Source: Boseongicola sp. (lineage in GTDB: Bacteria > Pseudomonadota > Alphaproteobacteria > Rhodobacterales > Rhodobacteraceae). From it: DNA of 44,465 nucleotides. This document shows, in pieces, positions 10,278 to 44,143 of this stretch. The notes under the pieces were generated by a model. It was not told the origin of the DNA. It was given only the letters and a program-made list of their open reading frames with translations, and made no database searches. The stretch spans positions 1 through 44,465 of the forward strand of contig JAPPCV010000079.1 in assembly GCA_028824715.1 (NCBI GenBank), given 5' to 3'. Both the position numbers and the translations under genes were made by a program. Numbering within the stretch: the stretch's first letter is position 1; each line of letters opens with the position of its first letter.

Positions 10278-10288
10278 GGATCCGGCCC

Positions 10289-12839: not shown

Positions 12840-12926
12840 AGGGGACGAGGCTTCATGCGTCGAAGGTCACTCCATCACGCATTGCCGGGGAGCAAGTGCA
12901 TTGCCGCCGCTTCTGGCCTGAATCAA

Positions 12927-12944: not shown

Positions 12945-13013
12945 ACTGGTCCCTGCGCTCGGAATCTCTCTTGCACGGCCCGAACTGTGGCCGGGAACCA
13001 TGGGGGTGGATAG

Positions 13014-25096: not shown

Positions 25097-25118
25097 TCAA
25101 CGGACAGGCGAGGTGTCC

Positions 25119-27116: not shown

Positions 27117-28055
27117 ATGAAGAAATCAATTGTTGCGGCGGGTGTCGCCACGCTCATGGCAACCAGTGCCTACGGGCAGGAGCTCGGTGCATCGATCGCG
27201 CGTTTCGACGACAACTTCCTGACCGTGATGCGGAACGGCATGGTTGACCATGCGGCATCGCTCGACGGCGTTAATCTTCAGGTCGAGGATGCAACCGACG
27301 ACATCGGCAAGCAGATTGACCAGGTGAAGAACTTCGTCGCTTCAGGCGTCGACGCAATCATCGTCAACATTGTCGACACGTCTGCCGGTGCCGCCGTGTC
27401 GGCCGCAGCGGGTGACGTGCCGCTCGTCTACGTCAATCGCGAACCTGACAACGTGAATGATCTTCCGTCGACGCAGGCGTTCGTTGCGTCAAACGAGATC
27501 GAGTCCGGAACGCTCGAGGCTTTCCAGATCTGCCGCAACTTGCGCGCAGCCGGAAAGGCTGGCGGCGCCATGGGATACCTGATGAACGGCCAGCTTTCGA
27601 ACCAGGCTGCCGTTCAGCGGTCCAAGGACGTGCATGACGTTATCGGAATGGACATGTGCAACTTCATGACGCTGATCGACGAACAGACCGCCAACTGGAG
27701 CCGTGACGAGGCACAGTCGCTTATGACGAACTGGCTGTCCGCGGGCGAAGACTTCGACTTCGTCATCGCCAACAACGACGAAATGGCCATCGGCGCAATC
27801 CAGGCCATGAAGGCGGCGGGAATCGACATGGCCGATGTGGAAGTTGGCGGCGTGGACGCGACCCAGGACGCTCTGGTCGCGATGCAGGCCGGCGAACTGG
27901 ACGTGACCGTTTTCCAGGATGCCTTCGGGCAGGGTGCAGGTTCGGTGGATACCGCCATCGCGCTGGTGAACGGCGACGATGTTGACCAGAAGGTCTACAT
28001 CCCGTTCAAGCTGGTTACGCCAGACAACATCGGTGACTTCCTCGACAAGAACTGA
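27117..28055 (+). CDS. Sugar-binding protein of a second CUT2 importer
   Basis: A 312-aa periplasmic-binding protein of the ribose/inositol class with a Sec signal of about 20 residues ending AYGQ. Ligand-cleft motifs are visible: ASIARFDDNFLTVMRNG, VDAIIVNIVDTSAG, PLVYVNREP, VIANNDEMAIGAIQAMKAAG and GGVDATQDAL. The arrangement resembles inositol- or fructose-type binders of alphaproteobacteria; the ligand is not certain. AAGGGAGG precedes the ATG. First gene of a three-gene importer preceded by LacI-type operators. Confidence 0.9.
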   Translation: MKKSIVAAGVATLMATSAYGQELGASIARFDDNFLTVMRNGMVDHAASLDGVNLQVEDATDDIGKQIDQVKNFVASGVDAIIVNIVDTSAGAAVSAAAGDVPLVYVNREPDNVNDLPSTQAFVASNEIESGTLEAFQICRNLRAAGKAGGAMGYLMNGQLSNQAAVQRSKDVHDVIGMDMCNFMTLIDEQTANWSRDEAQSLMTNWLSAGEDFDFVIANNDEMAIGAIQAMKAAGIDMADVEVGGVDATQDALVAMQAGELDVTVFQDAFGQGAGSVDTAIALVNGDDVDQKVYIPFKLVTPDNIGDFLDKN

Positions 28056-28066
28056 GTTTCCGAATG

Positions 28067-28091
28067 CGGGGCGGCAGCCAATGCCGCCCCG
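28067..28091 (+). terminator. Intercistronic hairpin 1 after the binding-protein gene
   Basis: A perfect 10-bp stem (CGGGGCGGCA / TGCCGCCCCG) with a 5-base loop, 12 bases after the stop. No T-tract, so probably an mRNA-stability element or partial terminator. Confidence 0.6.
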
Positions 28092-28094
28092 TGA

Positions 28095-28118
28095 GTCCCG
28101 GACTGTTGTGTCCGGGAC
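28095..28118 (+). terminator. Intercistronic hairpin 2
   Basis: A perfect 9-bp stem (GTCCCGGAC / GTCCGGGAC) with a 6-base loop, directly after hairpin 1 and 24 bases before the permease ATG. Two tandem hairpins in one short gap is unusual. Confidence 0.55.
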
Positions 28119-28141
28119 GTGACGATCCACGGGAGCGGAAC

Positions 28142-29296
28142 ATGTCTGATACATCCCATGGCACCGGCGGCCTTGCATTCGACAAGTCGAAGCGGGCCTG
28201 GCCGAACGAAGTAAACATCTTCATCGCGCTTGTACTGATTGTCCTGATCTTCGAGGCCTTGGGTCAATTGCTTCCCTACATGAAGGGCCAAAGCATGCTC
28301 TTCGACTTCAATTCGAGACGTGACGGCACGATCCTGAACATGGCGCGGATCAAGATCATCATTCTCCAGGTCTCGATCATCGGGATCATCGCGCTAGGTG
28401 TCACGCAGGTCATCATCACGGGAGGGATTGACTTGAGCTCGGGCTCGATCGTCGGCGCGACGGCAATGATCTCGATGAGTTTCGCCCAGACTGAACTGGT
28501 GAACGGCAACCCCAATCCGAAAGCGATATTCGGTCCGTGGGCAATGGACCTTCCGATTCTCGTGCCGATTGCAGTCGGACTGGGATGCGGATTGATTGCC
28601 GGATCGATCAACGGGCTGCTGATCGCCTATACCCGGATTCCGCCGTTCATTGCGACGCTCGGCATGATGGTGAGCGCGCGTGGCGTTGCCAAGTGGTGGT
28701 CGCGCGGCAATCCGATTTCCTTTCCGACCGACGAATATGCGGCGATCTCCAACGGGAACCTCGTGGACGGCCTGACTTTCGGCGTGTTTTCGGAGAGCTG
28801 GATCGTGACGCAGGTCTTCGACGGCCAGAACCCCGCGATCTACTTCCTTCTTCTCGCGGTGCTCTTCCATTTCATCATGAAATACACCGTGTATGGCAAG
28901 CATACGTATGCGATCGGATCCAACGAGGATGCGGCACGCATGTCGGGCATCAACGTGGCGTGGCAGAAGGTCATGGTCTACGCGATCGCGGGCATGCTTG
29001 CGGGATTCGCCGCGATACTCCTGACATCGCGCAACGTGACCGCGCAGGCTGGCATGGGCTTTGTCTATGAGCTTGACGCGATCGCGATGGCGGTGATCGG
29101 TGGCGTTTCGCTGGCCGGTGGCCGCGGCTCGATCATCGGCACCGTGCTCGGAGCCATGATCTTCGGCGTCATCATTTCCGGCTTCACGTATCTGAAGCTT
29201 GACGCCTTCTATCAGGAAATGGTCAAGGGCGGAATCATAGTCGCTGCCGTCGTTCTCGACCAATGGCGTCAGCGGCGTGCGGCATTGAGGTCGTGA
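28142..29296 (+). CDS. CUT2 sugar ABC transporter permease
   Basis: A 384-aa RbsC/FrcC-type membrane protein. Conserved TM block GVTQVIITGGIDLSSGSIVG (about residues 95-114), then RIPPFIATLGMM, GKHTYAIGSNEDAARMSGIN and VIGGVSLAGGRGSIIGTVLGA. The longer loop around residues 185-230 fits the inositol/fructose subgroup. ATG 28142 follows GGGAGCGG; the upstream open frame runs through the hairpins. As the only permease here it should form a homodimer, unlike the two-permease importer at 7718-11233. Confidence 0.9.
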   Translation: MSDTSHGTGGLAFDKSKRAWPNEVNIFIALVLIVLIFEALGQLLPYMKGQSMLFDFNSRRDGTILNMARIKIIILQVSIIGIIALGVTQVIITGGIDLSSGSIVGATAMISMSFAQTELVNGNPNPKAIFGPWAMDLPILVPIAVGLGCGLIAGSINGLLIAYTRIPPFIATLGMMVSARGVAKWWSRGNPISFPTDEYAAISNGNLVDGLTFGVFSESWIVTQVFDGQNPAIYFLLLAVLFHFIMKYTVYGKHTYAIGSNEDAARMSGINVAWQKVMVYAIAGMLAGFAAILLTSRNVTAQAGMGFVYELDAIAMAVIGGVSLAGGRGSIIGTVLGAMIFGVIISGFTYLKLDAFYQEMVKGGIIVAAVVLDQWRQRRAALRS

Positions 29297-29306
29297 GGAG
29301 GGCGAA

Positions 29307-30083
29307 ATGAGTGATGAAATCGTCCTGAAAACGGAAGACCTGACCAAGCACTATGGTGGTGTCCATGCGCTGGAAGCAGCCGACTTCGAACTGAAGAATG
29401 GCGAGCATGTCGCCATCATGGGAGACAACGGCGCGGGCAAGTCCACTTTCGTGCGCCAGATCACCGGCGTGGAGCAACGAACGCGAGGCCGGATATGGCT
29501 CTACGGCGAAGAGGTGAATTTCGCGGGTCCGCTTGATGCACGCGAGGCTGGCATCGAGACCGTCTTCCAGACCTTGGCGCTCGCCGATGACCTCGACGTT
29601 CCCGACAACCTGTTCCTTGGACGCGAGATGACGAAATGGAACTGGCTCGGGCCGTTCCGGATGCTGGACTACAAGGGCATGCGAGATGCAACGGTGGCCG
29701 GGCTTGAAAGGACGGCGGTCAAGATTCCGAACATCCGGAACACGATCCGCAACATGTCGGGCGGCCAGCGGCAGTGCGTCGCCATCGCCCGGACCGCGAC
29801 GTTCCACTCACGGCTGACGATCATGGACGAGCCGACAGCGGCCTTGGGCGTGCAGGAAACCGCCCAGGTCGAGAACATCGTCAGGCAGCTCAAGGAAGCG
29901 GGCGAGCCGTTGATCCTGATCAGTCACAACATGCGCCAGGTCATGGATCTTGTGGATCGGATCATCGTGTTCCGGCGCGGTCGCATCGTTGCAAATCTTG
30001 GCCGCGACGAAACCGATGGTCAGGACGTCGTTGCCTATATCACGGGTGCCAAGACCGGCGCCGAATACGAAGGCGCTGCATAG
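29307..30083 (+). CDS. CUT2 ABC transporter ATPase with a single nucleotide-binding domain (FrcA-like)
   Basis: A 258-aa ATPase: Walker A GDNGAGKST (about residues 39-47), signature MSGGQRQ, Walker B LTIMDEPTAALG and switch His ISHNMR. Most CUT2 systems use a fused double ATPase; single-domain versions such as the fructose importer FrcA work as homodimers. All catalytic residues are present. Ten bases after the permease, last gene of the operon, convergent with the HEPN gene. Confidence 0.92.
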   Translation: MSDEIVLKTEDLTKHYGGVHALEAADFELKNGEHVAIMGDNGAGKSTFVRQITGVEQRTRGRIWLYGEEVNFAGPLDAREAGIETVFQTLALADDLDVPDNLFLGREMTKWNWLGPFRMLDYKGMRDATVAGLERTAVKIPNIRNTIRNMSGGQRQCVAIARTATFHSRLTIMDEPTAALGVQETAQVENIVRQLKEAGEPLILISHNMRQVMDLVDRIIVFRRGRIVANLGRDETDGQDVVAYITGAKTGAEYEGAA

Positions 30084-31255: not shown

Positions 31256-32857
31256 TCAGCCTGCGTGATCGGCCTTGATCATGTCGGCGGCCTTTTCTGC
31301 GATCATTATCGTTGCCGCATTGGTGTTCGAGGATATGAGTCGTGGCATGACCGAGGCGTCGACGACACGCAGTCGGTCGATGCCGTTGAAACTCAGGCGC
31401 GGAGTGACGACCGCATCCGGGTCCGATCCCATCCTGCACGTGCCGGACGGGTGGTGGTCGGTCTTTGCCATGGCCGCAGCGTAGGCGTGGTAATCCTCGT
31501 CTGTCCTGACATCCGGTCCTGGCAGGACTTCGCGGCTGACATAGGGTGCGAGGGGCGCTGCCGCGAGGATCTTCTGCGCAAGTTTCAGGCCCCGAACCGC
31601 CATGTCGCGGTCATGCGTGTCGGACCAGTAATTCGGGTCGATGAGCGGCGCGTCGGCCGGGTCTGCCGAGGCGAGCCGGACGGTGCCGCGCGAACGCGGT
31701 CGCATGTAAGCAGAATTGAGAGTGAGACCGTCCTTTTCCATTCTGGCGATGCCAGCCTCGATTCCTGAACCGAGGCCGAGATGGAACTGGATGTCGGGTG
31801 ATCTCGCTCCTTCCTCGACGTACCAGAAGCCGCCTGTCTCGAAGAGGCTTGAAGCGACCGGCCCCTTGCGCGTGAGCAGGTAGCGCACTCCGGCAACCGC
31901 CGACCAGAACGGTCGCGCGTACTTGTCGTAGGTGTGTTCGCCGGTGCATTCGGCCATCGTGCAGAAATCCAGGTGATCCTGCAGATTCGACCCCACGCCG
32001 GAATGATCGCAGGCAACTGTCACGCCGTGCGAGCGCAGGTGATCCGCCGGACCTATGCCCGAAAGCATCAACAGCTTTGGCGACCCTATGGAACCTGAGG
32101 ACACGACGATTTCAGTGTCTGCGTGAATGACCATTTCTCCCTTGCCGTCGGCAACGACAACTCCGGTCGCCTGGCCCTTGTCGGTTTCGATCCGCAGAAC
32201 CTGGGCGTTCAGTCGCAAATCGAGGTTTGGACGCTTCAGGGCAGGCCGCAGGTAGGCGATTGCCGCGGATGAACGGCGAGCATTTGACTGCGTGAGCTGG
32301 TAGTAGCCCACGCCTTCCTGGTTTTCGCCGGCAAGGTCGGGATTGCGGGGAATGCCCACGGACTCCGCGGCTTCCAGGAATGCGTCACATATGGGCAGCG
32401 CGGCAGCCGGGCGCGACACCCCCAGTGGGCCATCCGTCCCGTGATACCTGTCGTCATGCGTGTCGTTGCGCTCCGCCTTGCGAAAAAATGGCAGGACGTC
32501 CTCGTAGCCCCATCCTTCACAGCCAAGCTGGCGCCATTCGTCATAGTCGAGCGCGTTTCCCCGGGTATAGACCTGGGCATTGATCGTGGAGCCGCCACCG
32601 ATCACCTTCGCCTGCGTATAGACGAGGGATCTCCCGTCCAGATGCTTCTGGGGAACAGTCGACCAGCCCCAGCTCCCGATGCCCTTGGTCATTTTCGCGA
32701 AGCCGGCGGGAACGTGATAGAACGGGTGCCAGTCCCGTCCGCCGGCCTCGATCAGGCAGACACGACAGTCTTCAAGCTCGGAGAGCCTGGCCGCCAGCAC
32801 GCATCCTGCGGACCCGCCGCCGACAATGACGAAATCATATCCTTCTGCAGTCGACAT
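31256..32857 (-). CDS. GMC-family FAD oxidoreductase (second paralogue)
   Basis: A 533-aa choline-dehydrogenase-like flavoenzyme. FAD motif VIVGGGSAGCVLAARL near residues 10-25 and AKVIGGGSTINAQVYTRG near 82-99; catalytic His469 (HHPSGTCRMG) and Asn513 (SNTNAATIMIAEK). ATG 32857 was chosen because GGAG sits eight bases upstream; ATG 32863 is too close and 32914 lies in the ATPase end. Last gene of the minus-strand CUT1 operon, 53 bases after the ATPase, so its substrate is probably the compound that importer brings in. Confidence 0.92.
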   Translation of the reverse strand: MSTAEGYDFVIVGGGSAGCVLAARLSELEDCRVCLIEAGGRDWHPFYHVPAGFAKMTKGIGSWGWSTVPQKHLDGRSLVYTQAKVIGGGSTINAQVYTRGNALDYDEWRQLGCEGWGYEDVLPFFRKAERNDTHDDRYHGTDGPLGVSRPAAALPICDAFLEAAESVGIPRNPDLAGENQEGVGYYQLTQSNARRSSAAIAYLRPALKRPNLDLRLNAQVLRIETDKGQATGVVVADGKGEMVIHADTEIVVSSGSIGSPKLLMLSGIGPADHLRSHGVTVACDHSGVGSNLQDHLDFCTMAECTGEHTYDKYARPFWSAVAGVRYLLTRKGPVASSLFETGGFWYVEEGARSPDIQFHLGLGSGIEAGIARMEKDGLTLNSAYMRPRSRGTVRLASADPADAPLIDPNYWSDTHDRDMAVRGLKLAQKILAAAPLAPYVSREVLPGPDVRTDEDYHAYAAAMAKTDHHPSGTCRMGSDPDAVVTPRLSFNGIDRLRVVDASVMPRLISSNTNAATIMIAEKAADMIKADHAG

Positions 32858-32910
32858 TGACATCACTCCGGGGATTCTTTCAGCGACACTGTACCCTGTC
32901 GCATTGGCGT

Positions 32911-33966
<1,056 letters not shown>

Positions 33967-33970
33967 GGCC

Positions 33971-35017
33971 TTAACCCTTTACGGCCCCCAGCAGGAGGCC
34001 CTTGGAGATGTAGCGCTGCAGGATGATCGCGAGGATCACGACCGGGATGATCATGACGATTATGACAACCGACATCGACCACCAGAGGATGCCGCGTTCT
34101 CCCGCGTTCATTGCGGCGACAAGGATGGGCATGGTCTGCGCGCGGGATGTCGAGAGGAAGAGCGCGAGAAGGTACTCGTTCCAGCTCAGGATCATGACGA
34201 GGAGCGTCGTTGCGGCGAGGCCGGATCGCGACAGCGGCAGAACGATGTCCCAGAAGACGCCGAACCGGGTTGCCCCGTCGAGCTGCGCGCACTCCTCCAG
34301 GTCGATGGGGATCGACGTGAAGAAATCGTACATCAGCCAGATGACGATGGGCAGGTTGATGACAGTGTAGGTCAGGATGATCGCGATATGGGTGTCGAGG
34401 AGCGAGACCTGCTGGAACATCATGTAGATCGGCACGACGACGACGATGGGCGCGAGGATTCTTTGCGAGATCATCCAGAACAGGATGTCGCCGTTGCCAA
34501 GGCGTGCCTTGAAATGGCGCCCAAGTGCCCGGGCAAGAAAGTAGAAGACCGCGACGCCCGCTGCGCAGGAAAGCCGCCAGTCGACGCCGTAGCGACCGAC
34601 CGCGACGAACGCGCCAACCATGACAAGGACGAACATGAAGACGACGCCGAATCTCGGCTGGTACTCGAAACGGGCCAGCGCGTAGGACGCCATCGAGCCA
34701 ATGATGACGCTCGCTGCAGTGGCGGAAAGCGCGATGATGAGCGAGTTCACGTAGGCGCTGAGCGTGTCCCAGAAGTCGAAGACGAACAGTTCCTTCCAGG
34801 CATGCAGGCTTGGCTGGAAGTCGACGAACGGCAAGTATACGGGTCCCGAATTGACGTCGATCGCGCTCTTGAACGAGGTGATGAGCACCCAGTAGATCGG
34901 GAACAGCACGAACGCCGTCCAGAACGTCAGGATCGCGTAGACGATCACCTTGGTTCCCGGCGCCATGTCCCGGATGGATGGCGGCTCGAAGAGCCATTGC
35001 ATTGCGCTCCTGTTCAT
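33971..35017 (-). CDS. CUT1 sugar ABC transporter permease, MalG type with extra membrane segments
   Basis: A 348-aa permease, about 60 residues longer than usual. After the ASYALARFEYQPR segment come two additional hydrophobic stretches (VVFMFVLVMVGAFVAV and LSCAAGVAVFYFLARAL) before the family resumes at MISQRILAPIVVVVPIYMMF. The EAA loop is EECAQLDGATRFGVFWDIVLPLSRSG. The start overlaps the upstream permease stop (ATGA). The insertion is matched by one in its partner, suggesting an altered channel or an added interaction surface. Confidence 0.9.
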   Translation of the reverse strand: MNRSAMQWLFEPPSIRDMAPGTKVIVYAILTFWTAFVLFPIYWVLITSFKSAIDVNSGPVYLPFVDFQPSLHAWKELFVFDFWDTLSAYVNSLIIALSATAASVIIGSMASYALARFEYQPRFGVVFMFVLVMVGAFVAVGRYGVDWRLSCAAGVAVFYFLARALGRHFKARLGNGDILFWMISQRILAPIVVVVPIYMMFQQVSLLDTHIAIILTYTVINLPIVIWLMYDFFTSIPIDLEECAQLDGATRFGVFWDIVLPLSRSGLAATTLLVMILSWNEYLLALFLSTSRAQTMPILVAAMNAGERGILWWSMSVVIIVMIIPVVILAIILQRYISKGLLLGAVKG

Positions 35018-36168
35018 GCCCGCACCCTCCTCAACACCACGAGATTGAAGAACGACACGCAGGTCACGACAGTAACGAAGAGCAGGAGATATGCGACGGC
35101 TGCCGACTGGCCCAGATCAAGCGAGCGCCAGGCGAACAGCGCGTGAAGCGTCATGGACTCGGTCGCGATGCCCGGCCCTCCCGCAGTCATGATGTTGGGC
35201 AGGTCCACGATCTTGAATGCCTCGATCACCCTGATCAGCAGGACCGTTGCGGCAACGGGCACGACCTGGGGCCAGGTGATGTCCTTGAAGATTTCCCAGG
35301 ACGTCGCCCCATCGACCTGCGCCGCCTCGACATAGTCGCGCGGCACGCTTTCGAGAGCGGCGAGCATGACGACGAAAATGAAGGGAATCCACTGCCAGCT
35401 GTCTCCGATGACTATGAAGAACCGCGCGGCCCAGGCATCGGCCGCCCAGGCGAAATCGCCAAGGCCGGCCCATTGCCAGACGGGCGAGAAGGGCCCCTTG
35501 GTCGTGTCCGCCATCATGCGGAATGCGTATCCGACCCCGATTGGGGTGATCATGAGCGGGATGAAGAAGACCACGCGAAAGAAGGTCCTGCCCCGGATCG
35601 GCAAGGAGCACAGAAAGGCCAGCGCGAGCCCGATCACGAACTGCAGGCCGCAGCCGACAAAGACGTAGAACAGCGTCGTGCCGAGGGTGCCGAACGGGTG
35701 GCCCGAAAACAGGGTGGCCGCGAAGAGCCACCCAAGGCCCAGGCTCAGGCCCCAGGTGAAAAGGCGTCCGACCAGGCCGACCGCCGTGACCGGGCCGCGA
35801 AGATAGCTGATGGCGAGCCAGGCGATCAGGAGCGTGACTGCAAGGCCGACGGCCCATCCCAGAAGCCCAAGGCCGTTGAATGTCCCGAGAAAGTGAAACT
35901 GCTCGGATCCGAAGAGCTGCTTCTCAAAGTTCTGGAACCAGACGAAGCGGACATTGTAGGTGCCGCCCCTGAACCGGATGCGGCTCAGCGCCATGATGAG
36001 AGACGCCACGAGGGGGAAGATCGAGAAGACCAGGATCATGATGACCGCCGGCCAGATGAAGACCTGCGCGGAATGGCGGTCAATCCAGTCGGACAGCCGC
36101 TCGCGCGCCCCTATGGAAGGTGCGGCCCGAGGGGTCCCGGGCCGCACGGATTCTTCTGAACCGGTCAA
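35014..36168 (-). CDS. CUT1 sugar ABC transporter permease, MalF type with extra membrane segments
   Basis: A 384-aa permease, roughly 80 residues above the usual length. Extra hydrophobic stretches (LGLLGWAVGLAVTLLIAWLAISYL and LFTWGLSLGLGWLFAATLF) lie between TM1 and the canonical second helix. The EAA loop reads EAAQVDGATSWEIFKDITWP. The first in-frame start is TTG 36168, three bases after the binding-protein stop; GTG 36147 is the alternative, and both lie at or inside a strong hairpin. That makes the true start uncertain. Confidence 0.87.
   Translation of the reverse strand: MTGSEESVRPGTPRAAPSIGARERLSDWIDRHSAQVFIWPAVIMILVFSIFPLVASLIMALSRIRFRGGTYNVRFVWFQNFEKQLFGSEQFHFLGTFNGLGLLGWAVGLAVTLLIAWLAISYLRGPVTAVGLVGRLFTWGLSLGLGWLFAATLFSGHPFGTLGTTLFYVFVGCGLQFVIGLALAFLCSLPIRGRTFFRVVFFIPLMITPIGVGYAFRMMADTTKGPFSPVWQWAGLGDFAWAADAWAARFFIVIGDSWQWIPFIFVVMLAALESVPRDYVEAAQVDGATSWEIFKDITWPQVVPVAATVLLIRVIEAFKIVDLPNIMTAGGPGIATESMTLHALFAWRSLDLGQSAAVAYLLLFVTVVTCVSFFNLVVLRRVRA
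36121..36146 (-). terminator. Hairpin after the binding-protein gene, inside the permease 5' end
   Basis: TGCGGCCCG / CGGGCCGCA, a perfect 9-bp stem with an 8-base loop, 25 bases after the binding-protein stop. Unlike the other three importer operons there is almost no intergenic space, so the hairpin is built from the first permease codons. It may reduce permease translation and protect the upstream mRNA. Confidence 0.5.
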
Positions 36169-36171: not shown

Positions 36172-37641
36172 TCAGTTCGTGATGCCGAGCGACAGGTTGT
36201 AGATGGTCATCTGGCTGTCACGGCCGAAGTCCTCGGTGATCTCCTCCCAGGCTTCCTCAATGTTCTTGGTTGCCTGCTCGGCCGTGATCTCACCCGCGAG
36301 GAAGCGGGCCAGCTCGCGGTCGAGGACCACGCCGGTGTACTGCTGCGCACCGGGGATCTTGAGGTCGGACGCCATGTTCGGATGGTTCAGGCTGTCCTTG
36401 ATCGCGCCAAGATAGTTCTCGGCGAATTCAGGGCTGAACCCGGCCTTGATCCAGTTCTCGGTGTTTTCGAGCTGCGAGTTCCTGTAGGGATTGTAGCCCG
36501 TCCAGCCGATGGTCACGTCGACGTTCGACTGAGCGGCCTGGTTCACGTAGGACAGGAAGTCGTAGGCAGCCTGCTTGACGTTCGCGTCCGAGTTCTTGTT
36601 GATCGCGCCTGCCCATCCACCGAACGCGGCGAACGGCGCGTAGTTGATGCCGTCAATCGCATGCGGGCAGAGCGACTCGTTGCACTGTTCAAGCTTGCCG
36701 GTTTCCACGTTCAGCGCCATGGGCGAGCCGGGCATGATCACGGCGCCCATCTTGTCCTTGATTGCGGCTCCGGACGGGTCGATCGACAGCGGGCCGATGT
36801 CGCCCCAGTCGATTGCGAGTCCGCACCGGCCCGACTGGACCAGTCCGCGGGTGTCGCCGATATCGTGGTTCAGCTCGTCGGGCGGACCGAATTCACCGGT
36901 CGCCTTGTAGACCCGGAACGCCTCCTGCCATGCCTCGTTGTCGACCTTGGGCTTCATCGTGTCGTTGTGGAAGAAGATGCCCTCTCCCGTGCCCTTGGTC
37001 TGCACGAATCCTGCGGCGATGGATCCCATGGCAAAGTACGACTGTGCATTCCGCTTCTTGAAGATGCACGAGCCGAAGTCGGCTTCGCCGTCTCCGTTCA
37101 GGTCCTTGCCGTGCATCGCGCCGGCGACCGTCATGTAATCGTCCCAGGTGCGCGGCGGCTCGAGGCCCATCTCGTCGAGGATGTCCCGGCGGTAGTAGAG
37201 CATCTGGAAGTCGCCATCGACGGTGATCAGGTAGGTCTCGCCGCCGATTTTCTGATTGAACTCGCGGAAGTAGGGCGCGATGTCGTCAATGTCGATCTTG
37301 TCGTCATTCGCAATGTAGCCGTCGAGAGGCTCGACCAGACCGGCGTCGACCAGCTCGGTCGCCCAACCGGACGCGAAGACACCGACGTCAATCGAGTTCG
37401 TGCCGGTCGCCCAGTCCGTCAGGATCTTCTGAAACAGTTCCGCAAACGGGACCTCGTTGACGCGAATCTCCGCGCCGGTCATGGCGGTGAACTCCTCGCC
37501 ACGCTCGACGAGGCGCTGCGCGATGACGGGTCCCGGACGCGTCAGGATCTCGACGGTCACGCCGCTGTAGTCCTGGGCGCCTGCAGGCACCGAGAACGCA
37601 AGGGCTGAAACGAATCCAAGCCCGATGGATGCTTTCTTCAT
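36172..37641 (-). CDS. Sugar-binding protein of a CUT1 importer (family 1, 489 aa)
   Basis: Large extracellular solute-binding protein with a Sec signal (about 23 residues, ending PAGAQ). The mature part starts VTVEILTRPGPVIAQRLVERGEEF. DLNGDGEADFG (residues 180-190) looks like a calcium-binding loop (D-x-N-x-D-G-x-x-D), seen in some sugar binders of this type. GGGAG lies eight bases before ATG 37641. First gene of an operon with two enlarged permeases, an ATPase and a GMC oxidoreductase. Ligand probably a sugar, polyol or oligosaccharide; not determinable here. Confidence 0.9.
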   Translation of the reverse strand: MKKASIGLGFVSALAFSVPAGAQDYSGVTVEILTRPGPVIAQRLVERGEEFTAMTGAEIRVNEVPFAELFQKILTDWATGTNSIDVGVFASGWATELVDAGLVEPLDGYIANDDKIDIDDIAPYFREFNQKIGGETYLITVDGDFQMLYYRRDILDEMGLEPPRTWDDYMTVAGAMHGKDLNGDGEADFGSCIFKKRNAQSYFAMGSIAAGFVQTKGTGEGIFFHNDTMKPKVDNEAWQEAFRVYKATGEFGPPDELNHDIGDTRGLVQSGRCGLAIDWGDIGPLSIDPSGAAIKDKMGAVIMPGSPMALNVETGKLEQCNESLCPHAIDGINYAPFAAFGGWAGAINKNSDANVKQAAYDFLSYVNQAAQSNVDVTIGWTGYNPYRNSQLENTENWIKAGFSPEFAENYLGAIKDSLNHPNMASDLKIPGAQQYTGVVLDRELARFLAGEITAEQATKNIEEAWEEITEDFGRDSQMTIYNLSLGITN

Positions 37642-37658
37642 TGAGTTTTCTCCCAGAT

Positions 37659-37671
37659 TTGGTGGGACCAA
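37659..37671. promoter_or_regulatory. Short palindrome upstream of the minus-strand importer
   Basis: TTGGTGGGACCAA, perfect 5-base arms with a 3-base centre, 18 bases before the binding-protein ATG. A related TTGGGCCAA lies at 37739. Possible operator pair; weak. Confidence 0.25.
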
Positions 37672-38016: not shown

Positions 38017-38733
38017 CTATCCCGTGCCGCCCGCGATCTTGTCTGCAAGCAGCGTGTTCACCTGCTTCTGCGCCTCGACATGGGCAATATGGCCAATTCC
38101 TGGAAGCTCCACCAAGGTTCCGAGCTTCTCGATCCTATCCCGATCCGGGCTGGCTACGTTGTCCTCCGTTCCCCAGATCACCGTGATGTCCAGCCCGCGT
38201 TCGGCCACCCTTGGCAGGAGGGCGCAGAGTTCGGCATCTATGGTCGGAAGCTGGTCTGCAATCTTCGCAAGGGCGTCGCGCGCGCCGTCTCGCTCCAGCT
38301 GCCGGAGCGCGTTGTCTACGACCATTGGCGCGATAACGCCTTCATTCGCCACGAGCGGCTCAAGAAAGCGGCGCATTTCATCCTTGTCCCTCAATTCGGA
38401 ATACTCTTTCAGGGGCACGATGCCCAAGCGCCGGCCAAGTCCGATCGGAGCCAGCAGCACAAGGCCGCGAAAGAGTTCCGGCATCTCTGCAGCGAGCTTG
38501 AGCGCGAGCCCGCCTCCGAGCGAGTGTCCAACCAGCCAGACTGGCGGACCGCGCTTGATGCGGGCGATCAGGCGGGACGCCAAGTCTTCAAGAGAGCCGT
38601 CGCCAAGATCGCTTATGGACTTTCCGTGGCCCGGCAGGTCGGGCGTGATCGCATCGATGCCTGGAATTGCCGGAGTCGTGCCAACCCACGTGAGCCGGTC
38701 GGCGGCGAAGCCGTGCAGGAAGACCGCGCGCAT
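38017..38733 (-). CDS. Alpha/beta hydrolase, AcoC C-terminal-domain-like
   Basis: A 238-aa alpha/beta-hydrolase. Nucleophile Ser71 in GHSLGG, acid Asp191 in WGTEDN, base His215 in GIGHIAH. In AcoC of acetoin dehydrogenases a lipoyl domain is fused to just such a hydrolase-fold domain, which takes the place of the normal E2 acyltransferase. Here the two parts are separate genes overlapping by one base (TGATG). I infer it moves the acyl group off the neighbouring lipoyl protein, to CoA or to water. An intact Ser-His-Asp triad makes hydrolysis a real option. Confidence 0.85.
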   Translation of the reverse strand: MRAVFLHGFAADRLTWVGTTPAIPGIDAITPDLPGHGKSISDLGDGSLEDLASRLIARIKRGPPVWLVGHSLGGGLALKLAAEMPELFRGLVLLAPIGLGRRLGIVPLKEYSELRDKDEMRRFLEPLVANEGVIAPMVVDNALRQLERDGARDALAKIADQLPTIDAELCALLPRVAERGLDITVIWGTEDNVASPDRDRIEKLGTLVELPGIGHIAHVEAQKQVNTLLADKIAGGTG

Positions 38734-38972
38734 CAGGTCTCGATGACCGCGAGGACGGTGCCGACTGCCACGATTTCATCCTCCTCGACGAGCAATTCGA
38801 GAACTGTGCCTGACGCTGGAGCTTCAAGGTCCATCGTGACCTTCGGCGTCGTGATGGTCACGATCTCCTCGCCCTCGGAGACCTCGTCGCCGACGTCTTT
38901 CAGAAAGGCGTCGATCATTGCCTCGGTGATCTCGTTGCCGAGTTCCGGCATCCTGAGCTCTACGCGTGCCAT
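38733..38972 (-). CDS. Stand-alone lipoyl-domain protein (79 aa)
   Basis: A complete biotin/lipoyl-attachment domain and nothing else. VELRMPELGNEITEAMI opens the fold, and the lipoylated lysine is Lys44 in ITTPKVTMDLEAPASG, where most E2 proteins have DKV/DKA. There is no peripheral-subunit-binding or catalytic domain. It sits between the fused E1 gene (11 bases upstream) and the hydrolase, so it should be the swinging-arm carrier reductively acylated by that E1. Its small size is like GcvH or biotin-carrier subunits in concept but not in sequence. Confidence 0.9.
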   Translation of the reverse strand: MARVELRMPELGNEITEAMIDAFLKDVGDEVSEGEEIVTITTPKVTMDLEAPASGTVLELLVEEDEIVAVGTVLAVIET

Positions 38973-38983
38973 TCCGTCCTCTC

Positions 38984-41437
38984 CTAAAGCCCGGACCTGG
39001 CGAGGGCCAGGTCATCCCACCGTCGGCTGCCTTTCCGGTCATGCCCGGCGACGCCCATCAGGTCTGTCAGGATCGCGTCCTCGATGTCGAAGGGCTGCGG
39101 GAAGTAGCCGTGTTCCAGATCCGCGCCGGGGACGATCCAGTTCGGGCTTCCAAGCACTCGGGGCGGAGCCTTCAGCGCGCCGAAGGCGAATCGCGTGACG
39201 TTGGAGGCCAGCGTCATCGCGAAGCTCCCGCGTTCGCAGGCTTCGGTCACCAGCAAGAGTCGTCCGGTCTTCGTCACGGACTCCAGCACCTGGCCGTAGT
39301 CGAACGGGACGAGCGACCGGGCGTCGATGATTTCGAGCGAAACGCCGCGTCCGGCGAGCAAGTCCGCTGCCTCAAGCGCGGGATAGAGCGTCGGACCGAT
39401 GGTCAGGACGGTGACATCGCTGCCGGCACGCTTGATGTCGGGTGCACCGATCGGGATCTTGTAGTTCCCCTCCGGCACTTCGTCCTTGAACAGCTCGACC
39501 TGGTCATAGAGCCGCTGGCTCTCGAAGACGATCACGGGATCGTCCGACGCCAGAGCCGAGGCCATCAGGCCCTTCGCATCACGGGGCGTGGCGGGGTAGA
39601 TGATCTTGAGACCCGGAACATGCGCCGCCAGCCCTGACCAGTCCTGGGAATGCTGCGCACCATACTTGGAGCCGACCGAGCATCTGACCACGACCGGGAC
39701 GCTCAGCAATCCGTTCGACATGGCCTGCCATTTCGCGAGCTGGTTGAACAGTTCGTCTCCCGCTCTCCCGATGAAATCGGCGTACATGAGCTCGACCACG
39801 GGGCGGCCGCCTTCCATCGCCGCGCCAATGGCCGTCGACACGATGGCGGCTTCGGAAATCGGCGCATTGAAGACACGGTCGTGCGGCAAGAGGTCGGCAA
39901 GGCCTCGATAGACGCCGAACGCGCCGCCCCATTCCCGACACTCCTCTCCGTAGATGATGACGCGGGAGTCAGTCAGCGCGGCGTGCAGGATCGCCTCGAA
40001 CAGGCCGTCGCGGAGGGTGATCGCTTTCAACGGCGAGAGAGGCTCGCCGTTGGCATCCCTCCCGCCACGCGATTTCCTTGCGTTCTGCCGGATGCGGGCC
40101 ACCTTCTCGGGGTCGGACAGAGGTTCAGGTGCGGGCCCGTCCGACGGCGTCTCGCTGCCCGCGAACATTTTCCGTCCGATGCCGGCTCCGTCGATTCCGA
40201 GACGGGGAGGCGGGGCGGTCTCGGGGTCGGCAGCAGCCATGAACACCGCGTTCATTCGTGCATCCACCTCGGACTGGATCGCGTCCGCCGCTGCCGTGTC
40301 GAGAATGCCCTCCGAGACCAGGGAATCGCGATAGGTCCTGATCGGGTCAACTGCGCCCCAGGCCGCGATTTCGTCCTTGGTGCGGTAGGCATTGACGTCC
40401 GTCGTCGAGTGCCCGGAAAACCGGTAGCATTCCACGTCGAGAATGGCGGGTCCCTTGCCTTCAAGCAGCACATGGCGCTTGCGCTCAACGGCATCGGCGA
40501 CAGCAAGCGGGTTCGTGCCGTCGACGGTTTCCGCATGAAAGGCGTCATCGCGCAGTCCGGCGCCGATCCGTGCGAGCCGGTCCCAGGACATGGTTTCGCC
40601 GTTCGTCTGTCCGCCCATGGCGTAGAAGTTGTTGGTGAAGAAGAAGAGAACCGGAAGGAAGCCGGCATTGTCCCAGAGGCGTTCGAATTGCGCCATGCCG
40701 GCAAAGTTCAGGGCTTCCCACACCGGGCCGCAGCCCGTGGCCCCGTCACCGACCATCGAGACCGCGATGCAATCGCGACCTTCGGACTTCATCCAGAGCC
40801 CGGCTCCGGTCGCGATGCCTGCAGACGCCCCGACGATGGCATTGTTCGGATATGCGCCGAACGGCGTGAAGAAGGCATGCATGCTGCCTCCCATGCCGCC
40901 ATTGAAGCCGATTTCGCGCATGAACATCTCGGCGAGGAGCCCCACGAGCAGGAAGTTCTCGGCGAGGCCGTGTTCGGTCTCTTCCGCAAGGTGCGTCTCC
41001 ACGGTGCGGAGCAAGGCGCCGTTGCCGTGGGCTTCCATGATCGTGGTGAGCGCGTTGTCGCCCAGCCTTTGGATCGCCGCCAGCCCCTTTGCCAAGAACT
41101 CCCCGTGCGAGCGGTGTGACCCGAATATGTGATCTTCGGGTGTCAGCGCCATGGCCGCGCCGACCGCTGCCGCTTCCTGCCCGATCGAGAGGTGGGCAGG
41201 GCCCTTGTAAGCATAGGTCAGATCGCCGTAACTGCCTTTGGACTTGAGACTTGCAACACCGCTCTCGAAAGCTCGAATGACCATCATGTGACGCAGCGCC
41301 ATGATCAAGGTGTCAGCACCGCGTGCCCGAAGCTCTTCAGCCAGAGGACGCCCGTAGGCATGGACTGGAATTCGTTGCGACGCGAGTTCGGTCGAGCTTC
41401 TGGTCGCGGTCGGATCAACGTGAATTGACTTTGGCAA
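38984..41437 (-). CDS. Single-chain E1 alpha-beta 2-oxo-acid/acetoin-type dehydrogenase (ThDP)
   Basis: An 817-aa fusion of E1 alpha (about residues 40-400) and E1 beta (about 470-810). The thiamine-diphosphate motif runs from GDGA (230-233) to NN (269-270). GGMGGSMHAF, FSGHSTTD, GEECREWGGAFGVYRGL, APISEAAI and KYGAQHSQDW are typical alpha and beta landmarks. About 50 extra residues sit between HGEFLAKG and GGMGGSMH in the alpha half. Start TTG 41437, preceded by GGAAAGG; no ATG is well placed. Likely acts on a 2-oxo acid or, by analogy with AcoAB, an alpha-hydroxyketone, transferring the acyl fragment to the lipoyl protein downstream. Confidence 0.9.
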   Translation of the reverse strand: MPKSIHVDPTATRSSTELASQRIPVHAYGRPLAEELRARGADTLIMALRHMMVIRAFESGVASLKSKGSYGDLTYAYKGPAHLSIGQEAAAVGAAMALTPEDHIFGSHRSHGEFLAKGLAAIQRLGDNALTTIMEAHGNGALLRTVETHLAEETEHGLAENFLLVGLLAEMFMREIGFNGGMGGSMHAFFTPFGAYPNNAIVGASAGIATGAGLWMKSEGRDCIAVSMVGDGATGCGPVWEALNFAGMAQFERLWDNAGFLPVLFFFTNNFYAMGGQTNGETMSWDRLARIGAGLRDDAFHAETVDGTNPLAVADAVERKRHVLLEGKGPAILDVECYRFSGHSTTDVNAYRTKDEIAAWGAVDPIRTYRDSLVSEGILDTAAADAIQSEVDARMNAVFMAAADPETAPPPRLGIDGAGIGRKMFAGSETPSDGPAPEPLSDPEKVARIRQNARKSRGGRDANGEPLSPLKAITLRDGLFEAILHAALTDSRVIIYGEECREWGGAFGVYRGLADLLPHDRVFNAPISEAAIVSTAIGAAMEGGRPVVELMYADFIGRAGDELFNQLAKWQAMSNGLLSVPVVVRCSVGSKYGAQHSQDWSGLAAHVPGLKIIYPATPRDAKGLMASALASDDPVIVFESQRLYDQVELFKDEVPEGNYKIPIGAPDIKRAGSDVTVLTIGPTLYPALEAADLLAGRGVSLEIIDARSLVPFDYGQVLESVTKTGRLLLVTEACERGSFAMTLASNVTRFAFGALKAPPRVLGSPNWIVPGADLEHGYFPQPFDIEDAILTDLMGVAGHDRKGSRRWDDLALARSGL

Positions 41438-41460: not shown

Positions 41461-41558
41461 CCAGAGACCTAATCGCCTGGGCAACATTGAGGCAAGAGGC
41501 AGATTGACCTTTTGTGGGACAGCTTCACTATGGGATTGGCTCAACAGGGAGATGTCCG

Positions 41559-42491
41559 GTGATCCTTTGCGGCGGCGACGCATTGATCGACTTTGTGCCT
41601 TTGGAACAGGCGAACGGTCTGGCCGCGTTCGTGCCGAGGCCCGGTGGTGCCGTGTTGAATGCGGCGACGGCCTTGGCGCGGCTGGAGCAGGATGTCTCCT
41701 TTGTCGGCGCGCTCTCCACCGACCTGTTCGGTGACATGCTTCACGGCCACATGGTCCGCGAGGGCATCGGCACCGCCAACGTCAGCCGAAGCGACGATGA
41801 CAGCACTCTGGCCTTCGTCAGCTTGGTCGACGGTGAAGCGCGCTATGCATTTTATGACAGTGCCTCGGCAGGTCGCCTCTGGACAGGGCTGACGGGGCCG
41901 CTGCCTGCAGCAGAGGCGTTGCACTTCGGATCCCTCACTCTGTTCGCCGACCCTCCTGCAAGCGCATATGTGGAGTTGGCCGAGCAGGCATCATCTCGCA
42001 TGGTCGTGTCACTGGATCCGAATTGCCGTCCGAGCCTGGTACCGGACAAGGAAGCCTATCGCGGGCGCATTGCCCAGGTCTCGATGGCCAGCCACATCGT
42101 CCGCCTGTCGGATGAGGATCTCGCGTTTCTTCATCCGTCAGCAAGGGAGGGGGAAGTGGTGGACGGCCTGCTCGACGGCCTGACGCGCCTGGTGATCGTG
42201 TCCCGAGGAGCCGAGGGCGCGTCGGCCTGGTGGGCCGGAGGTCGGGTGGACGTTGCGGCGCGCGAGACGGACGTTCAGGACAGCATCGGCGCGGGAGACA
42301 CTTTCCATGCCGGCCTGCTTGCGGCCTTGTCTCGCGCCGGGCAACTGCGGGTCGATGCGCTTGACCGGCTGGATCGGGCATCCGTTGAAGCCGTGCTGGC
42401 GTTCGGAACTGCCGCAGCATCCTTGAATTGCATGGAATCCGGGTGCGATCCGCCAAGATTGAGCGCCGTGCTGGAATGCCTTGGAGAATGA
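41559..42491 (+). CDS. PfkB-family carbohydrate kinase
   Basis: A 310-aa ribokinase/fructokinase-fold enzyme. RPGGAVLNAATALARL (about residues 28-43) is the substrate/dimer glycine motif, and DSIGAGDTFHAG holds the catalytic base Asp247. It phosphorylates a sugar or 2-keto-3-deoxy sugar acid with ATP. GTG 41559 follows AGGGAG by seven bases and fits the family N-terminus (ILCGGDALIDFVP). Divergent from the E1 operon; followed after four bases by the amidohydrolase, so the three plus-strand genes form one operon. Confidence 0.9.
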   Translation: MILCGGDALIDFVPLEQANGLAAFVPRPGGAVLNAATALARLEQDVSFVGALSTDLFGDMLHGHMVREGIGTANVSRSDDDSTLAFVSLVDGEARYAFYDSASAGRLWTGLTGPLPAAEALHFGSLTLFADPPASAYVELAEQASSRMVVSLDPNCRPSLVPDKEAYRGRIAQVSMASHIVRLSDEDLAFLHPSAREGEVVDGLLDGLTRLVIVSRGAEGASAWWAGGRVDVAARETDVQDSIGAGDTFHAGLLAALSRAGQLRVDALDRLDRASVEAVLAFGTAAASLNCMESGCDPPRLSAVLECLGE

Positions 42492-42495
42492 TCGG

Positions 42496-43350
42496 ATGAC
42501 GCGTATCGACGCACATCAGCACTTCTGGTCCTTGGCGCGCGGAGACTACGGATGGCTGACGCCGGAGCTGGAGCCGATCTACCGCGACTTCCTTCCGGAC
42601 GACCTGAGGCCACTGTTGGCCGAGGCGGGCATTGACGGCACGATTCTCGTGCAGGCCGCTCCAACTGTTGCAGAGACGGAATTCATGCTTGGTCTCGCGC
42701 GAGACGAACCCTACATCAGGGGTGTCGTTGGCTGGGTCGACTTCGAGGACCCGCACGCGCCTGACGAAATTGCGCGCCTCGCCAGGCAACCGTCCTTGGT
42801 GGGCCTGCGCCCGATGATCCAGGACATCGCCGACGACGGCTGGATGCTGGGCGAAGGGCTCGTCCCCGCGTTTGACGCCCTGATTGCTGCCGATCTCACG
42901 TTCGACGCCCTGACGCTGCCGAGGCATCTGCCGGCTCTGCGAGCGCTCTTGGCGCGCCTCCCGAACATGCGAACGGTCATTGATCACGGCTCGAAGCCGA
43001 TGATCCGAGACGGGACCATGGATGGCTGGGACCGGGACATGGCGGCACTCGCGTCGGAGACGCCGGCGTTCTGCAAGCTGTCCGGGCTTGTGACCGAGGC
43101 GAACGCCGACTGGACCGTCGATGACTTGCGTCCGTACGTGGATCATCTTCTGGACACGTTCGGGCCGGACCGGCTCGTCTGGGGCAGCGACTGGCCGGTC
43201 TGCACGTTGGCGAGTTCCTACGGGCGGTGGGTGGAAGTGACAGGGGAGCTTCTTTCCGGGCTTGTCGAGGACGAAAGGAGCGCGATCCTCGGCGGCAACG
43301 CTGCGCGTGCCTACCGGTTGCGGGCACCTGATTCCGCTGACGCGGAGTAG
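42496..43350 (+). CDS. Amidohydrolase-2 family, sugar-lactonase-like
   Basis: A 284-aa TIM-barrel metal-dependent hydrolase. RIDAHQHFW (residues 3-11) is the metal-binding start of the L-fuconolactonase-like group, TVIDHGSKP gives a later His and VWGSDWPVC the conserved Asp. Members open sugar lactones or related esters made by aldose dehydrogenases. ATG 42496 has GGAG nine bases before it. Together with the kinase and SDR it fits a dehydrogenase-lactonase-kinase route for a sugar. Confidence 0.88.
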   Translation: MTRIDAHQHFWSLARGDYGWLTPELEPIYRDFLPDDLRPLLAEAGIDGTILVQAAPTVAETEFMLGLARDEPYIRGVVGWVDFEDPHAPDEIARLARQPSLVGLRPMIQDIADDGWMLGEGLVPAFDALIAADLTFDALTLPRHLPALRALLARLPNMRTVIDHGSKPMIRDGTMDGWDRDMAALASETPAFCKLSGLVTEANADWTVDDLRPYVDHLLDTFGPDRLVWGSDWPVCTLASSYGRWVEVTGELLSGLVEDERSAILGGNAARAYRLRAPDSADAE

Positions 43351-43369
43351 TTGGGAAGGGGCAGTCGGC

Positions 43370-44143
43370 ATGGGAGAATTCGACGGCAGGGTGGCGGTGG
43401 TCACGGGCTCAAGCGGCATTGGCCTGGGGGCGGCGCTGAAGTTCGCCCGGGAAGGCGCAACCGTGCACGTTTGCGGGAACGACGCGGCGCATAACGAAAG
43501 GGCATGGAGCAAGGCCGATGGGCTGGACGTGACCGTGGCCGAGGTTGATGTGACGCTGCCCGCGCAATTGGGGTCATGGATATATGATGTCGGAAGCAAC
43601 GGCGGGATTGACATCCTCGTGAATGCGGCAGCCGTCCAGACCTACGGAACGACGGAGTCGACGGACATCGGCCACTGGAACCGGGTCATCGCAACCAATC
43701 TGACCTCGTGTTTCCTGACCTCGCACTTTGCCTATCCCTTCATGAAGCAACGGGGCGGCGGCGCGATCGTCCATGTGTCATCGGTCCAGGGCCATGCCAA
43801 CCAGAGCGAGGTCCTGGCCTATGCTACCAGCAAGGGAGGAATTCACGCGTTGACGAGGGCACAGGCCGTTGACGCGGCAAAGGATGGCATCCGCGTGAAC
43901 TCCATAAGCCCGGGCTCGGTGCGTACGCCGCTGCTCGAGTTCGCAGCGCAGACTGTCGCGGGTGAAGGCAATCCGATCGAGGAAGTCATTGAGGGTTTCG
44001 GCAAGGCCCACCCGGCTGGCCGGGTCGGGACTGTCGAGGAGACGAGCGAGTTGATTGCGTTTCTTTGCAGCGACCGTGCAGGGTTTTGCACGGGAGGAGA
44101 CTATTTGATTGACGGAGGGCTGACGGCCGCGATCGGTGTGTGA
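43370..44143 (+). CDS. Short-chain dehydrogenase/reductase with shortened glycine loop
   Basis: A 257-aa classical SDR. The catalytic residues are Asn110, Ser138, Tyr151 and Lys155 (AYATSK). The nucleotide loop reads VVTGSSGIGLG: one residue fewer than the canonical TG-x3-G-x-G. The NNAG motif is VNAAAVQ. It may bind NAD(P) in an altered way, or the missing codon may be a recent in-frame deletion. ATG 43370 follows GGGAAGGGG by eight bases. Last gene of the kinase-lactonase operon; the partner aldose dehydrogenase role would fit it. Confidence 0.87.
   Translation: MGEFDGRVAVVTGSSGIGLGAALKFAREGATVHVCGNDAAHNERAWSKADGLDVTVAEVDVTLPAQLGSWIYDVGSNGGIDILVNAAAVQTYGTTESTDIGHWNRVIATNLTSCFLTSHFAYPFMKQRGGGAIVHVSSVQGHANQSEVLAYATSKGGIHALTRAQAVDAAKDGIRVNSISPGSVRTPLLEFAAQTVAGEGNPIEEVIEGFGKAHPAGRVGTVEETSELIAFLCSDRAGFCTGGDYLIDGGLTAAIGV

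Follow-up and report, generated by a model that had tools for sequence, protein, structure and literature searches.

A three-gene cluster in a 44,465-nucleotide stretch of Boseongicola sp. DNA (GenBank assembly GCA_028824715.1, contig JAPPCV010000079.1; referred to below as the window) encodes a thiamine pyrophosphate (TPP)-dependent dehydrogenase with its alpha and beta parts in one chain (E1), a free lipoyl domain (LIP), and an alpha/beta hydrolase (HYD). On balance it is slightly more likely than not that this trio is a dissociated complex of the acetoin dehydrogenase type, which would oxidatively cleave a ketose-like hydroxyketone and borrow a housekeeping dihydrolipoyl dehydrogenase (E3). 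The window is one entire contig (C142) of a 5.24-Mb draft genome (181 contigs, 98% complete), and the trio lies on its minus strand as follows.

38984..41437, minus strand: E1, fused TPP-dependent dehydrogenase, 817 amino acids, TTG start (open reading frame [ORF] list and Pfam); alpha half at about residues 1 to 410, linker at about 410 to 470, beta half at about 470 to 817

38733..38972, minus strand: LIP, free single lipoyl domain, 79 amino acids, Lys44 in the motif TTPK (Pfam, NCBIfam, and alignment)

38017..38733, minus strand: HYD, AcoC-type alpha/beta hydrolase, 238 amino acids, triad Ser71-Asp191-His215

Eleven bases separate E1 from LIP, and LIP and HYD share one base in TGATG. The TTG start of E1 is supported by an upstream GGAAAGG and by homologs that align from the same M-P-K start, in which the proline is invariant (45/45). 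Conservation of residues, start, and gene order ruled out chance or miscalled ORFs. A preliminary description of this DNA had reported a fused 817-residue E1, a 79-residue protein consisting only of a lipoyl domain with Lys44, and a hydrolase with an intact Ser71-Asp191-His215 triad, and ORFs, Pfam matches, and conservation all agree with that account. Promoter and terminator scans returned fewer sites than were found in shuffled sequences.

Relatives were collected by a scan of genome contigs, from which the best 80 of 414 were retained; annotated plasmid loci were added and one duplicate was removed (L084, identical to L028), giving 82 loci. In alignments of LIP and HYD, L028 was left out in place of L084 and lipoyl ORFs of more than 420 amino acids were left out, and any locus cut before the gene in question was excluded from the counts for that gene. 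The loci were divided into class A (72 loci; mostly Alphaproteobacteria, along with Granulosicoccaceae, a Chromatiales metagenome-assembled genome [MAG], and one MAG labeled Flavobacteriales) and class B (10 loci, L072, L074 to L078, and L080 to L083; Armatimonadota, Planctomycetota, Bacillota, Verrucomicrobiota, and one unplaced). This division was drawn after the neighborhoods had been viewed, so the contrast between E2 and LIP partners described below is descriptive. The nearest named relatives among the best 80 of 414 were Boseongicola and Silicimonas MAGs, with E1 identities of 89 to 95%. The trio is real, conserved, and, as far as a literature search shows, uncharacterized; that search found no paper on the trio family, and the main text of a Rhizobium leguminosarum paper (PMC3333776) contains neither acetoin nor any of three guessed gene tags.

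The Pfam domains E1_dh, Transket_pyr, and Transketolase_C occur together in the E1 chain, which scored under cutoff against two NCBIfam pyruvate dehydrogenase (PDH) E1 models (235 bits versus a cutoff of 321, and 200 bits versus 394). When solved structures were searched by sequence, the closest chains were 2-oxoacid, PDH, and branched-chain E1s, led by a 2-oxoacid E1 beta chain at 1e-60, with the best transketolase-type chain far behind at 7e-10. Cofactor and catalytic motifs were retained when E1 was aligned to solved PDH and 2-oxoacid E1s. Asp231 (of GDG), Asn270, His343 (of GHS), Glu529, and His596, to which we assign catalytic or cofactor roles on the assumption that general E1 biochemistry applies, are invariant in all 45 fused E1s, and GDG ends in Gly in 38 of them and in Ala in the other 7. 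The AlphaFold model of E1, built on the sequence minus residue 1, had a mean predicted local distance difference test score (pLDDT) of 87.2 and a predicted template modeling score (pTM) of 0.90. In structure comparisons the beta half resembled PDH and branched-chain E1 beta chains (template modeling scores by target of 0.86 to 0.93 among the matches listed), and the whole chain matched transketolases and SucA more loosely. As in an acetoin dehydrogenase complex, the trio has a predicted TPP-dependent E1 alpha/beta with intact catalytic residues.

LIP matched Biotin_lipoyl (PF00364) with 64.7 bits (cutoff, 22.1), and its GCV_H score was only 21.6 bits, under the cutoff of 22.2. It also matched positions 4 to 78 of the AcoC model (NF011457/PRK14875) with 59.8 bits, second to an E2 model at 64. 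Lys44, the predicted site of lipoylation, is kept in 69/69 class A LIPs, and LipA and LipB genes are both present in the window's own genome; in one Agrobacterium relative (L086), lipA lies near the trio. Aspartate is the usual residue before the lipoyl lysine in E2 lipoyl domains, where it matters for recognition by E1. In the 69 LIPs, this position is Pro in 41, Thr in 28, and never Asp. Free lipoyl proteins at other E1 loci read ETDK (L177), EAEK (L170), ETEK (C139), and VTGK (C151), and the T(P/T)K motif marks the class A lipoyl proteins. The class B E2s inspected mostly read ETDK (L074, L075, L080, L082, L083, and the inner domains of L076), and the first lipoyl domain of the L081 E2 reads EIEDA, not ETDK.

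HYD belongs to Abhydrolase_6/1 in Pfam. Its best NCBIfam family by far was AcoC, which it matched over model positions 135 to 370 with 149.1 bits, compared to 62 bits for the next family. The comparison with AcoC that had been proposed earlier, in which lipoyl and hydrolase parts are fused, is thus upheld for both halves, the 149-bit HYD match falling on one part of the model and the LIP match on positions 4 to 78. The Ser-Asp-His triad was found in 57 of 58 class A HYDs, the sole exception being truncated by a contig end. The predicted structure is a clean alpha/beta hydrolase (pLDDT, 94.2; pTM, 0.92), and the top 50 structural neighbors include C-C hydrolases, esterases, and BioH at 16 to 26% identity. 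In a tree of 24 of the 39 HYDs of set A2, 8 AcoC-type domains, and 9 other hydrolases (L189 and L192 were dropped for lack of a match), free HYDs grouped near AcoC domains (one change; support, 70/91). HYD is probably the dissociated catalytic part of an AcoC-type E2. The label “E2-less” in the preliminary description therefore holds only in part: there is no 2-oxoacid_dh core, but the likeness of HYD to the AcoC catalytic half makes the label an overstatement.

Pfam scans of E1, LIP, and HYD detected no E3_binding (peripheral subunit-binding domain [PSBD]) and no 2-oxoacid_dh domain, and neither PF00198 (the 2-oxoacid_dh core) nor the E3 marker Pyr_redox_dim was found on the window's contig, in agreement with the earlier statement that the locus has no PSBD, E2 core, or E3. 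A genome search for the E3 in use, also proposed earlier, located Pyr_redox_dim at four places elsewhere in the genome (C98, C46, C110, and C93). Of these candidates, C98 adjoins an E2 and an E1, and the C46 protein looks by eye like a dihydrolipoyl dehydrogenase. A conventional E2 encoded elsewhere had been named as a threat to the proposal, and two full-length E2s do exist (C36 and C98), but each has E1 genes nearby on the same contig; PF00198 otherwise gave a partial match on C161 (30 bits, 50 residues), a contig that also carries an E1 locus. Pairing of the trio with a spare conventional E2 was rejected on these grounds, and the two cores might still be used in trans.

Gene order is highly conserved in class A. 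Sixty-five of the 66 loci that extend 1,200 bases or more downstream have LIP after E1, and a profile count placed HYD within 3 kb of E1 in 55 of 66. The exception for LIP is L038, which has a fused E1, neither LIP nor HYD, and an E3-cluster gene upstream. Within 8 kb of the fused E1, class A loci contained an E2-cluster gene in 0/72 cases, an E3 in 1/72, and a HYD-cluster gene in 52/72 (a stricter count than the profile count), whereas class B loci contained an E2-cluster gene in 7/10, an E3 in 4/10, and no HYD-cluster gene. Three class B loci on short or one-sided contigs (L072, L077, and L078) had neither E2 nor LIP. The fused E1 type lies beside a classical E2 in one branch and beside LIP, usually accompanied by HYD, in the other. 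The class A locus labeled Flavobacteriales (L060) is arranged like the Alphaproteobacteria-labeled L061, L067, and L068, and its MAG label is probably wrong. In a broad sample, a fused E1 at an E value of 1e-150 or better occurred in 1 of 385 genomes of the taxonomic class, the window's own; it is rare at so strict a limit, which is uninformative on function.

In a quick tree of 57 E1 rows, which took 28 of the 45 fused E1s of set A1 and carries a long-branch warning, all 28 family members formed one clade on a long stem (SH-aLRT, 100). Within it, 20 proteobacterial-type rows grouped together (98), as did 8 class B rows (90), and an Arthrobacter E1 (L177) was sister to the clade (89). E1s with a neighbor annotated as an acetoin dehydrogenase E2 subunit (L178, L179, and L181) stood apart from this stem. 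Five other fused E1s from the same bacterial family (L163, L165, L166, L167, and L171; 677 to 759 residues read) fell outside the window's clade. Two changes between split and fused states are needed on this tree; L163, L165 to L167, and L171 are possibly separate fusions, and a single fusion origin would also be compatible with the well-supported branches.

The neighborhoods of the trio point to sugars. At least one sugar-type cluster gene lies within 8 kb in 68 of the 72 class A loci and a sugar kinase in 46, with PfkB present in 39, a SorC/DeoR-type regulator in 35, RbsD/FucU in 12, FGGY in 8, RbsK in 7, and transaldolase in 4. Model scans of cluster representatives supported the labels for SorC-type regulators (PF04198), RbsD_FucU, solute-binding proteins (SBP), and CUT2 transporter parts. 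Scores exceeded cutoff for a xylulokinase in L023 (521 versus 380) and a transaldolase in L036 (433 versus 396), and a ribokinase in L043 was just below. A D-psicose 3-epimerase-like gene adjoins the Rhizobium trio (143 bits; cutoff, 300), one Gfo/Idh gene weakly matched a UDP-GlcNAc dehydrogenase model (62 bits; cutoff, 450), and the cluster labeled aldose-1-epimerase is DUF4432 in the one member scanned, with each of its five class A loci carrying another sugar-type gene, which leaves the count of 68 unchanged.

The window itself fits this pattern, with the following genes on either side of the trio.

36172..37671, minus strand: solute-binding protein of a CUT1-type sugar ATP-binding cassette (ABC) importer (Pfam); SBP cluster in 14/72 loci; 345 bases downstream of HYD

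35014..36168, minus strand: ABC permease of the same CUT1 importer, by likeness to the near relatives' cluster CUT1perm1

33971..35017, minus strand: ABC permease of the same CUT1 importer, by likeness to the near relatives' cluster CUT1perm2

32911..33966, minus strand: ABC ATPase of the CUT1 importer, UgpC-like (417 bits; cutoff, 432)

31256..32914, minus strand: GMC-family FAD oxidoreductase, choline-dehydrogenase-like (563 bits; cutoff, 605)

41514..42491, plus strand: PfkB sugar kinase, divergent from E1 (Pfam/NCBIfam); PfkB cluster in 39/72 loci

42481..43350, plus strand: amidohydrolase, L-fuconolactonase-like (222 bits; cutoff, 400); cluster in 10/72 loci

43262..44143, plus strand: short-chain dehydrogenase (SDR), an aldose-dehydrogenase model being among the best, under cutoff; true start perhaps downstream

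The solute-binding protein of the CUT1 importer possibly belongs to the same pathway as the trio. Its best solved relatives were sorbitol-type and other sugar-binding proteins, all of them weak matches (E values of 1e-12 or worse) that point to no substrate. Farther from the trio, the window encodes an ectoine-hydrolase-like protein (25113 to 26300; DoeA model, 576 bits; cutoff, 613) and a second sugar importer, of CUT2 type (27117 to 30083).

If the trio acts on an alpha-hydroxyketone, that substrate is most likely a ketose or deoxyketose. The fused E1 would use TPP to attack its carbonyl and split the neighboring C-C bond, so that a shorter aldehyde or aldose is set free. The acyl unit left behind would be transferred reductively to the lipoamide on LIP, which would diffuse freely, having no tethered arm on which to swing. 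HYD could then pass the acyl group to coenzyme A (CoA) as an acyltransferase or to water as a thioesterase, and LIP would be reoxidized by a housekeeping dihydrolipoyl dehydrogenase encoded elsewhere in the genome. A more specific form of this scheme, possible but somewhat doubtful, would make the trio a lipoamide-dependent ketose dehydrogenase, a further kind of lipoate-dependent system, through an oxidative C2-C3 cleavage of a free or phosphorylated ketose that yields a glycolyl- or acetyl-lipoyl carrier plus a shorter aldose and needs no multisubunit E2 core. For the window, one conceivable order of steps would have the GMC oxidoreductase convert a polyol to a ketose, the trio cut the ketose, and the SDR and lactonase oxidize the released aldose. 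The chemistry has a precedent in acetoin dehydrogenase, described in PMC12247030 as oxidatively cleaving acetoin, with transfer to lipoamide and formation of acetyl-CoA.

Several points weigh against this scheme. We know of no family member with an activity, and E1, LIP, and HYD each fall short of curated cutoff in the NCBIfam models that they match; for the AcoC model it is 307 bits, against which LIP reached 59.8 and HYD 149.1. Descent of HYD from AcoC is left unproven by the hydrolase tree, in which support was modest and a single clade with AcoC was not rejected (AU P = 0.268). LIP has no Asp before Lys44, so standard E1-lipoyl recognition should not be assumed, and among the loci searched lipA was near the trio in L086 only. 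Eleven of 66 loci lack HYD near E1, which shows that E1 does not strictly need it as a neighbor. Seven of these 11 (L060 to L062, L064, L067 to L069) form one group with E1, LIP, RbsK, and RbsD/FucU, and with PfkB in 6 of 7; the absence of HYD there would imply another acyl acceptor, if the scheme holds. The sugar link is not exclusive to the trio family: sugar genes also surround split-E1 loci in which the AcoC-type E2 is fused. Most cluster labels were assigned by eye, with only some checked by model scan. In 20 control E1 loci of the same bacterial family (20 of 22 below-cutoff E1 places, the window genome's own C139 and C151 being omitted), a sugar-type gene was found in 10 and a sugar kinase in 5, a comparison that is biased toward class A, with clusters built from class A itself and positive controls that are themselves sugar linked. 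Sugar-acid genes also occur: an enolase-type, sugar-acid dehydratase-like gene is present in 4/72 class A loci (L036, L044, L050, and L053), with best models at 119 to 137 bits, under cutoff, for the two scanned, a 2,4-didehydro-3-deoxy-L-rhamnonate-hydrolase-like gene is present in L036, L044, and L053 (401 bits in L044; cutoff, 500), and L050 has an L-fucose dehydrogenase over cutoff (430 versus 300). These genes, together with the fuconolactonase-like gene (10/72 loci plus the window), suggest that an L-fucose-type oxidative route adjoins the trio in some relatives and that a sugar acid could be the substrate.

The alternative that follows from these last genes, which we regard as rather unlikely, is that E1 acts as a 2-oxo acid dehydrogenase, taking a 2-oxo acid of sugar origin such as hydroxypyruvate or a deoxy sugar acid, decarboxylating it, and delivering the acyl group to LIP. 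It would explain why the closest solved relatives of E1 are 2-oxoacid, PDH, and branched-chain E1s, whose catalytic residues are kept, as well as the sugar-acid genes in the four loci and the fuconolactonase-like gene in the window. However, the hydrolase partner is of the AcoC type and is not a 2-oxoacid_dh E2, sugar-acid genes are found at 4/72 loci compared to 46/72 for kinases, and the fucose-type oxidative route as it is known needs no E1. The sugar-derived ketone suggested in the preliminary description keeps its support from the genes near 68/72 loci, but the link is not unique, and the four loci would also fit a 2-oxo acid substrate. It is improbable that LIP and E1 use the E2 core of housekeeping PDH or 2-oxoglutarate dehydrogenase (OGDH) while HYD separately hydrolyzes a sugar ester or lactone. 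The loci that miss HYD (11/66), the generic hydrolase fold, and the two full E2s in the genome would fit such separate roles, but LIP and HYD overlap by one base, HYD is kept in 55/66 loci, AcoC is its best modeled family, and both full E2s are on contigs with their own E1 nearby.

We consider it very improbable that these genes encode an ordinary acetoin (or diacetyl/acetol) dehydrogenase with a split E2 and no tie to sugar use. The AcoC-like hydrolase and the annotation of relatives as acoB, acoC, and aceF are what such an enzyme would predict, yet sugar-type genes lie near 68/72 loci and the E1 stem is separate from L178, L179, and L181. Least credible of all is that E1 works chiefly as a carboligase, in the manner of the sugar-branching, E2-free alphaKADH2 enzymes, with LIP and HYD serving another reaction; E1-type carboligases acting on keto sugars are indeed described (PMC12247030), but the position of LIP beside E1 in 65/66 loci, with an invariant Lys, and the E2/E3 genes often kept by the sister group make this role unlikely and point to oxidation via lipoamide. 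The named neighbor clusters, moreover, are mostly transport, kinase, and regulator genes.

The dissociated, acetoin dehydrogenase-type reading can also be set beside known systems. With acetoin dehydrogenase AcoA-AcoB-AcoC (NF011457/PRK14875), the trio shares a TPP-dependent E1, a lipoyl domain, and an alpha/beta hydrolase domain, and hydroxyketone chemistry would be expected of it; it differs in having E1 alpha and beta fused, lipoyl and hydrolase parts in separate genes, no PSBD, and no E3 in the locus. Many aco operons, though not every one, include an E3 of their own. The trio would seem to work as an acetoin dehydrogenase does, yet it lacks a one-chain AcoC, a PSBD, and a local E3. PDH and branched-chain 2-oxoacid complexes have the same E1 fold, catalytic residues, and lipoamide carrier, but the trio has no 2-oxoacid_dh core, no PSBD, and T(P/T)K in place of DK. 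The glycine cleavage system (P, H, T, and L) offers a precedent, as its H protein is a free lipoyl carrier that visits separate enzymes and shares the housekeeping E3; LIP, in contrast, is an E2-type lipoyl domain that would serve a TPP-type E1 rather than a pyridoxal phosphate decarboxylase. Transketolase and phosphoketolase are TPP enzymes that cleave the ketose C2-C3 bond, and neither uses lipoamide; E1 shares transketolase-type domains but is closer in sequence to 2-oxoacid E1s. LbpA of sHdr sulfur oxidation is a stand-alone, GcvH-like lipoate-binding carrier linked to hdr-like genes (PMC6067878), whereas LIP resembles E2 lipoyl domains, adjoins E1, and is not GcvH-like by score (21.6, under 22.2).

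An E2 scaffold underlies the E1-type complexes. If the dissociated reading is true, the trio would show that E1-type oxidation can do without one. With a ketose as the substrate, the trio would also open a way of breaking down sugars around the customary aldolase, transketolase, and phosphoketolase steps, and would be an oxidative, lipoamide-dependent counterpart of phosphoketolase assembled from freely diffusing parts. It would also provide a testable function for genes now labeled by transfer as “alpha-ketoacid dehydrogenase subunit alpha/beta,” acoB, or acoC.

Other E1 loci show related arrangements. The same E1-lipoyl-hydrolase set exists in sugar loci with its parts fused: in L162, L164, L168, and L169, a split E1 and a one-chain AcoC-type E2 lie beside FGGY kinase, SorC-type regulator, and CUT2 transporter genes, and in L162 and L169 the E2 combines lipoyl, E3_binding (PSBD), and hydrolase domains in one chain. 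Compared to the fused E1, these E1s are 31 to 33% identical in alpha and 37 to 39% in beta. L162 and L164 also carry TIM-barrel epimerase-like, FGGY kinase, and DhaK/DhaL-like genes in the same locus (Dak1 shown for L164), the last of which could permit use of released dihydroxyacetone. A second way of dissociating an E2 is found in L170 (G052:C7:27000-45000, 2380-13204), where a split E1, a free 80-amino-acid lipoyl protein, and a stand-alone 221-amino-acid E2 catalytic domain (PF00198) have as neighbors, by eye or cluster, class II aldolase-like, FGGY kinase, SorC-type regulator, and lipoyl-synthase-like genes.

In L178 (6730-11397) and L180 (6595-12768), a DXR-II-like oxidoreductase lies next to a split E1 and E2, together with sorbitol phosphotransferase system (PTS) or sugar ABC genes; the DRL_cat domain was shown for L178, and the L180 homolog is 56% identical. 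The arrangement suggests that a deoxyxylulose-type sugar is cleaved and that relatives of the uncharacterized DLO families take part. Use of deoxyxylulose or methylerythritol by the trio itself was set aside, since tblastn found the DXR-II-like gene in no fused-E1 locus, and it stands as a lead only. The window's own genome holds two further clusters: G000:C139:1-4380 (L119), with a split E1, a free lipoyl protein (ETEKVT), and, by eye, transketolase-like halves, on a contig that ends within the cluster, and G000:C151:29300-34700 (L120), with a split E1 and a free lipoyl-like ORF (VTGKAS) followed by FAD-monooxygenase-like and aldehyde-dehydrogenase-like genes, also identified by eye.

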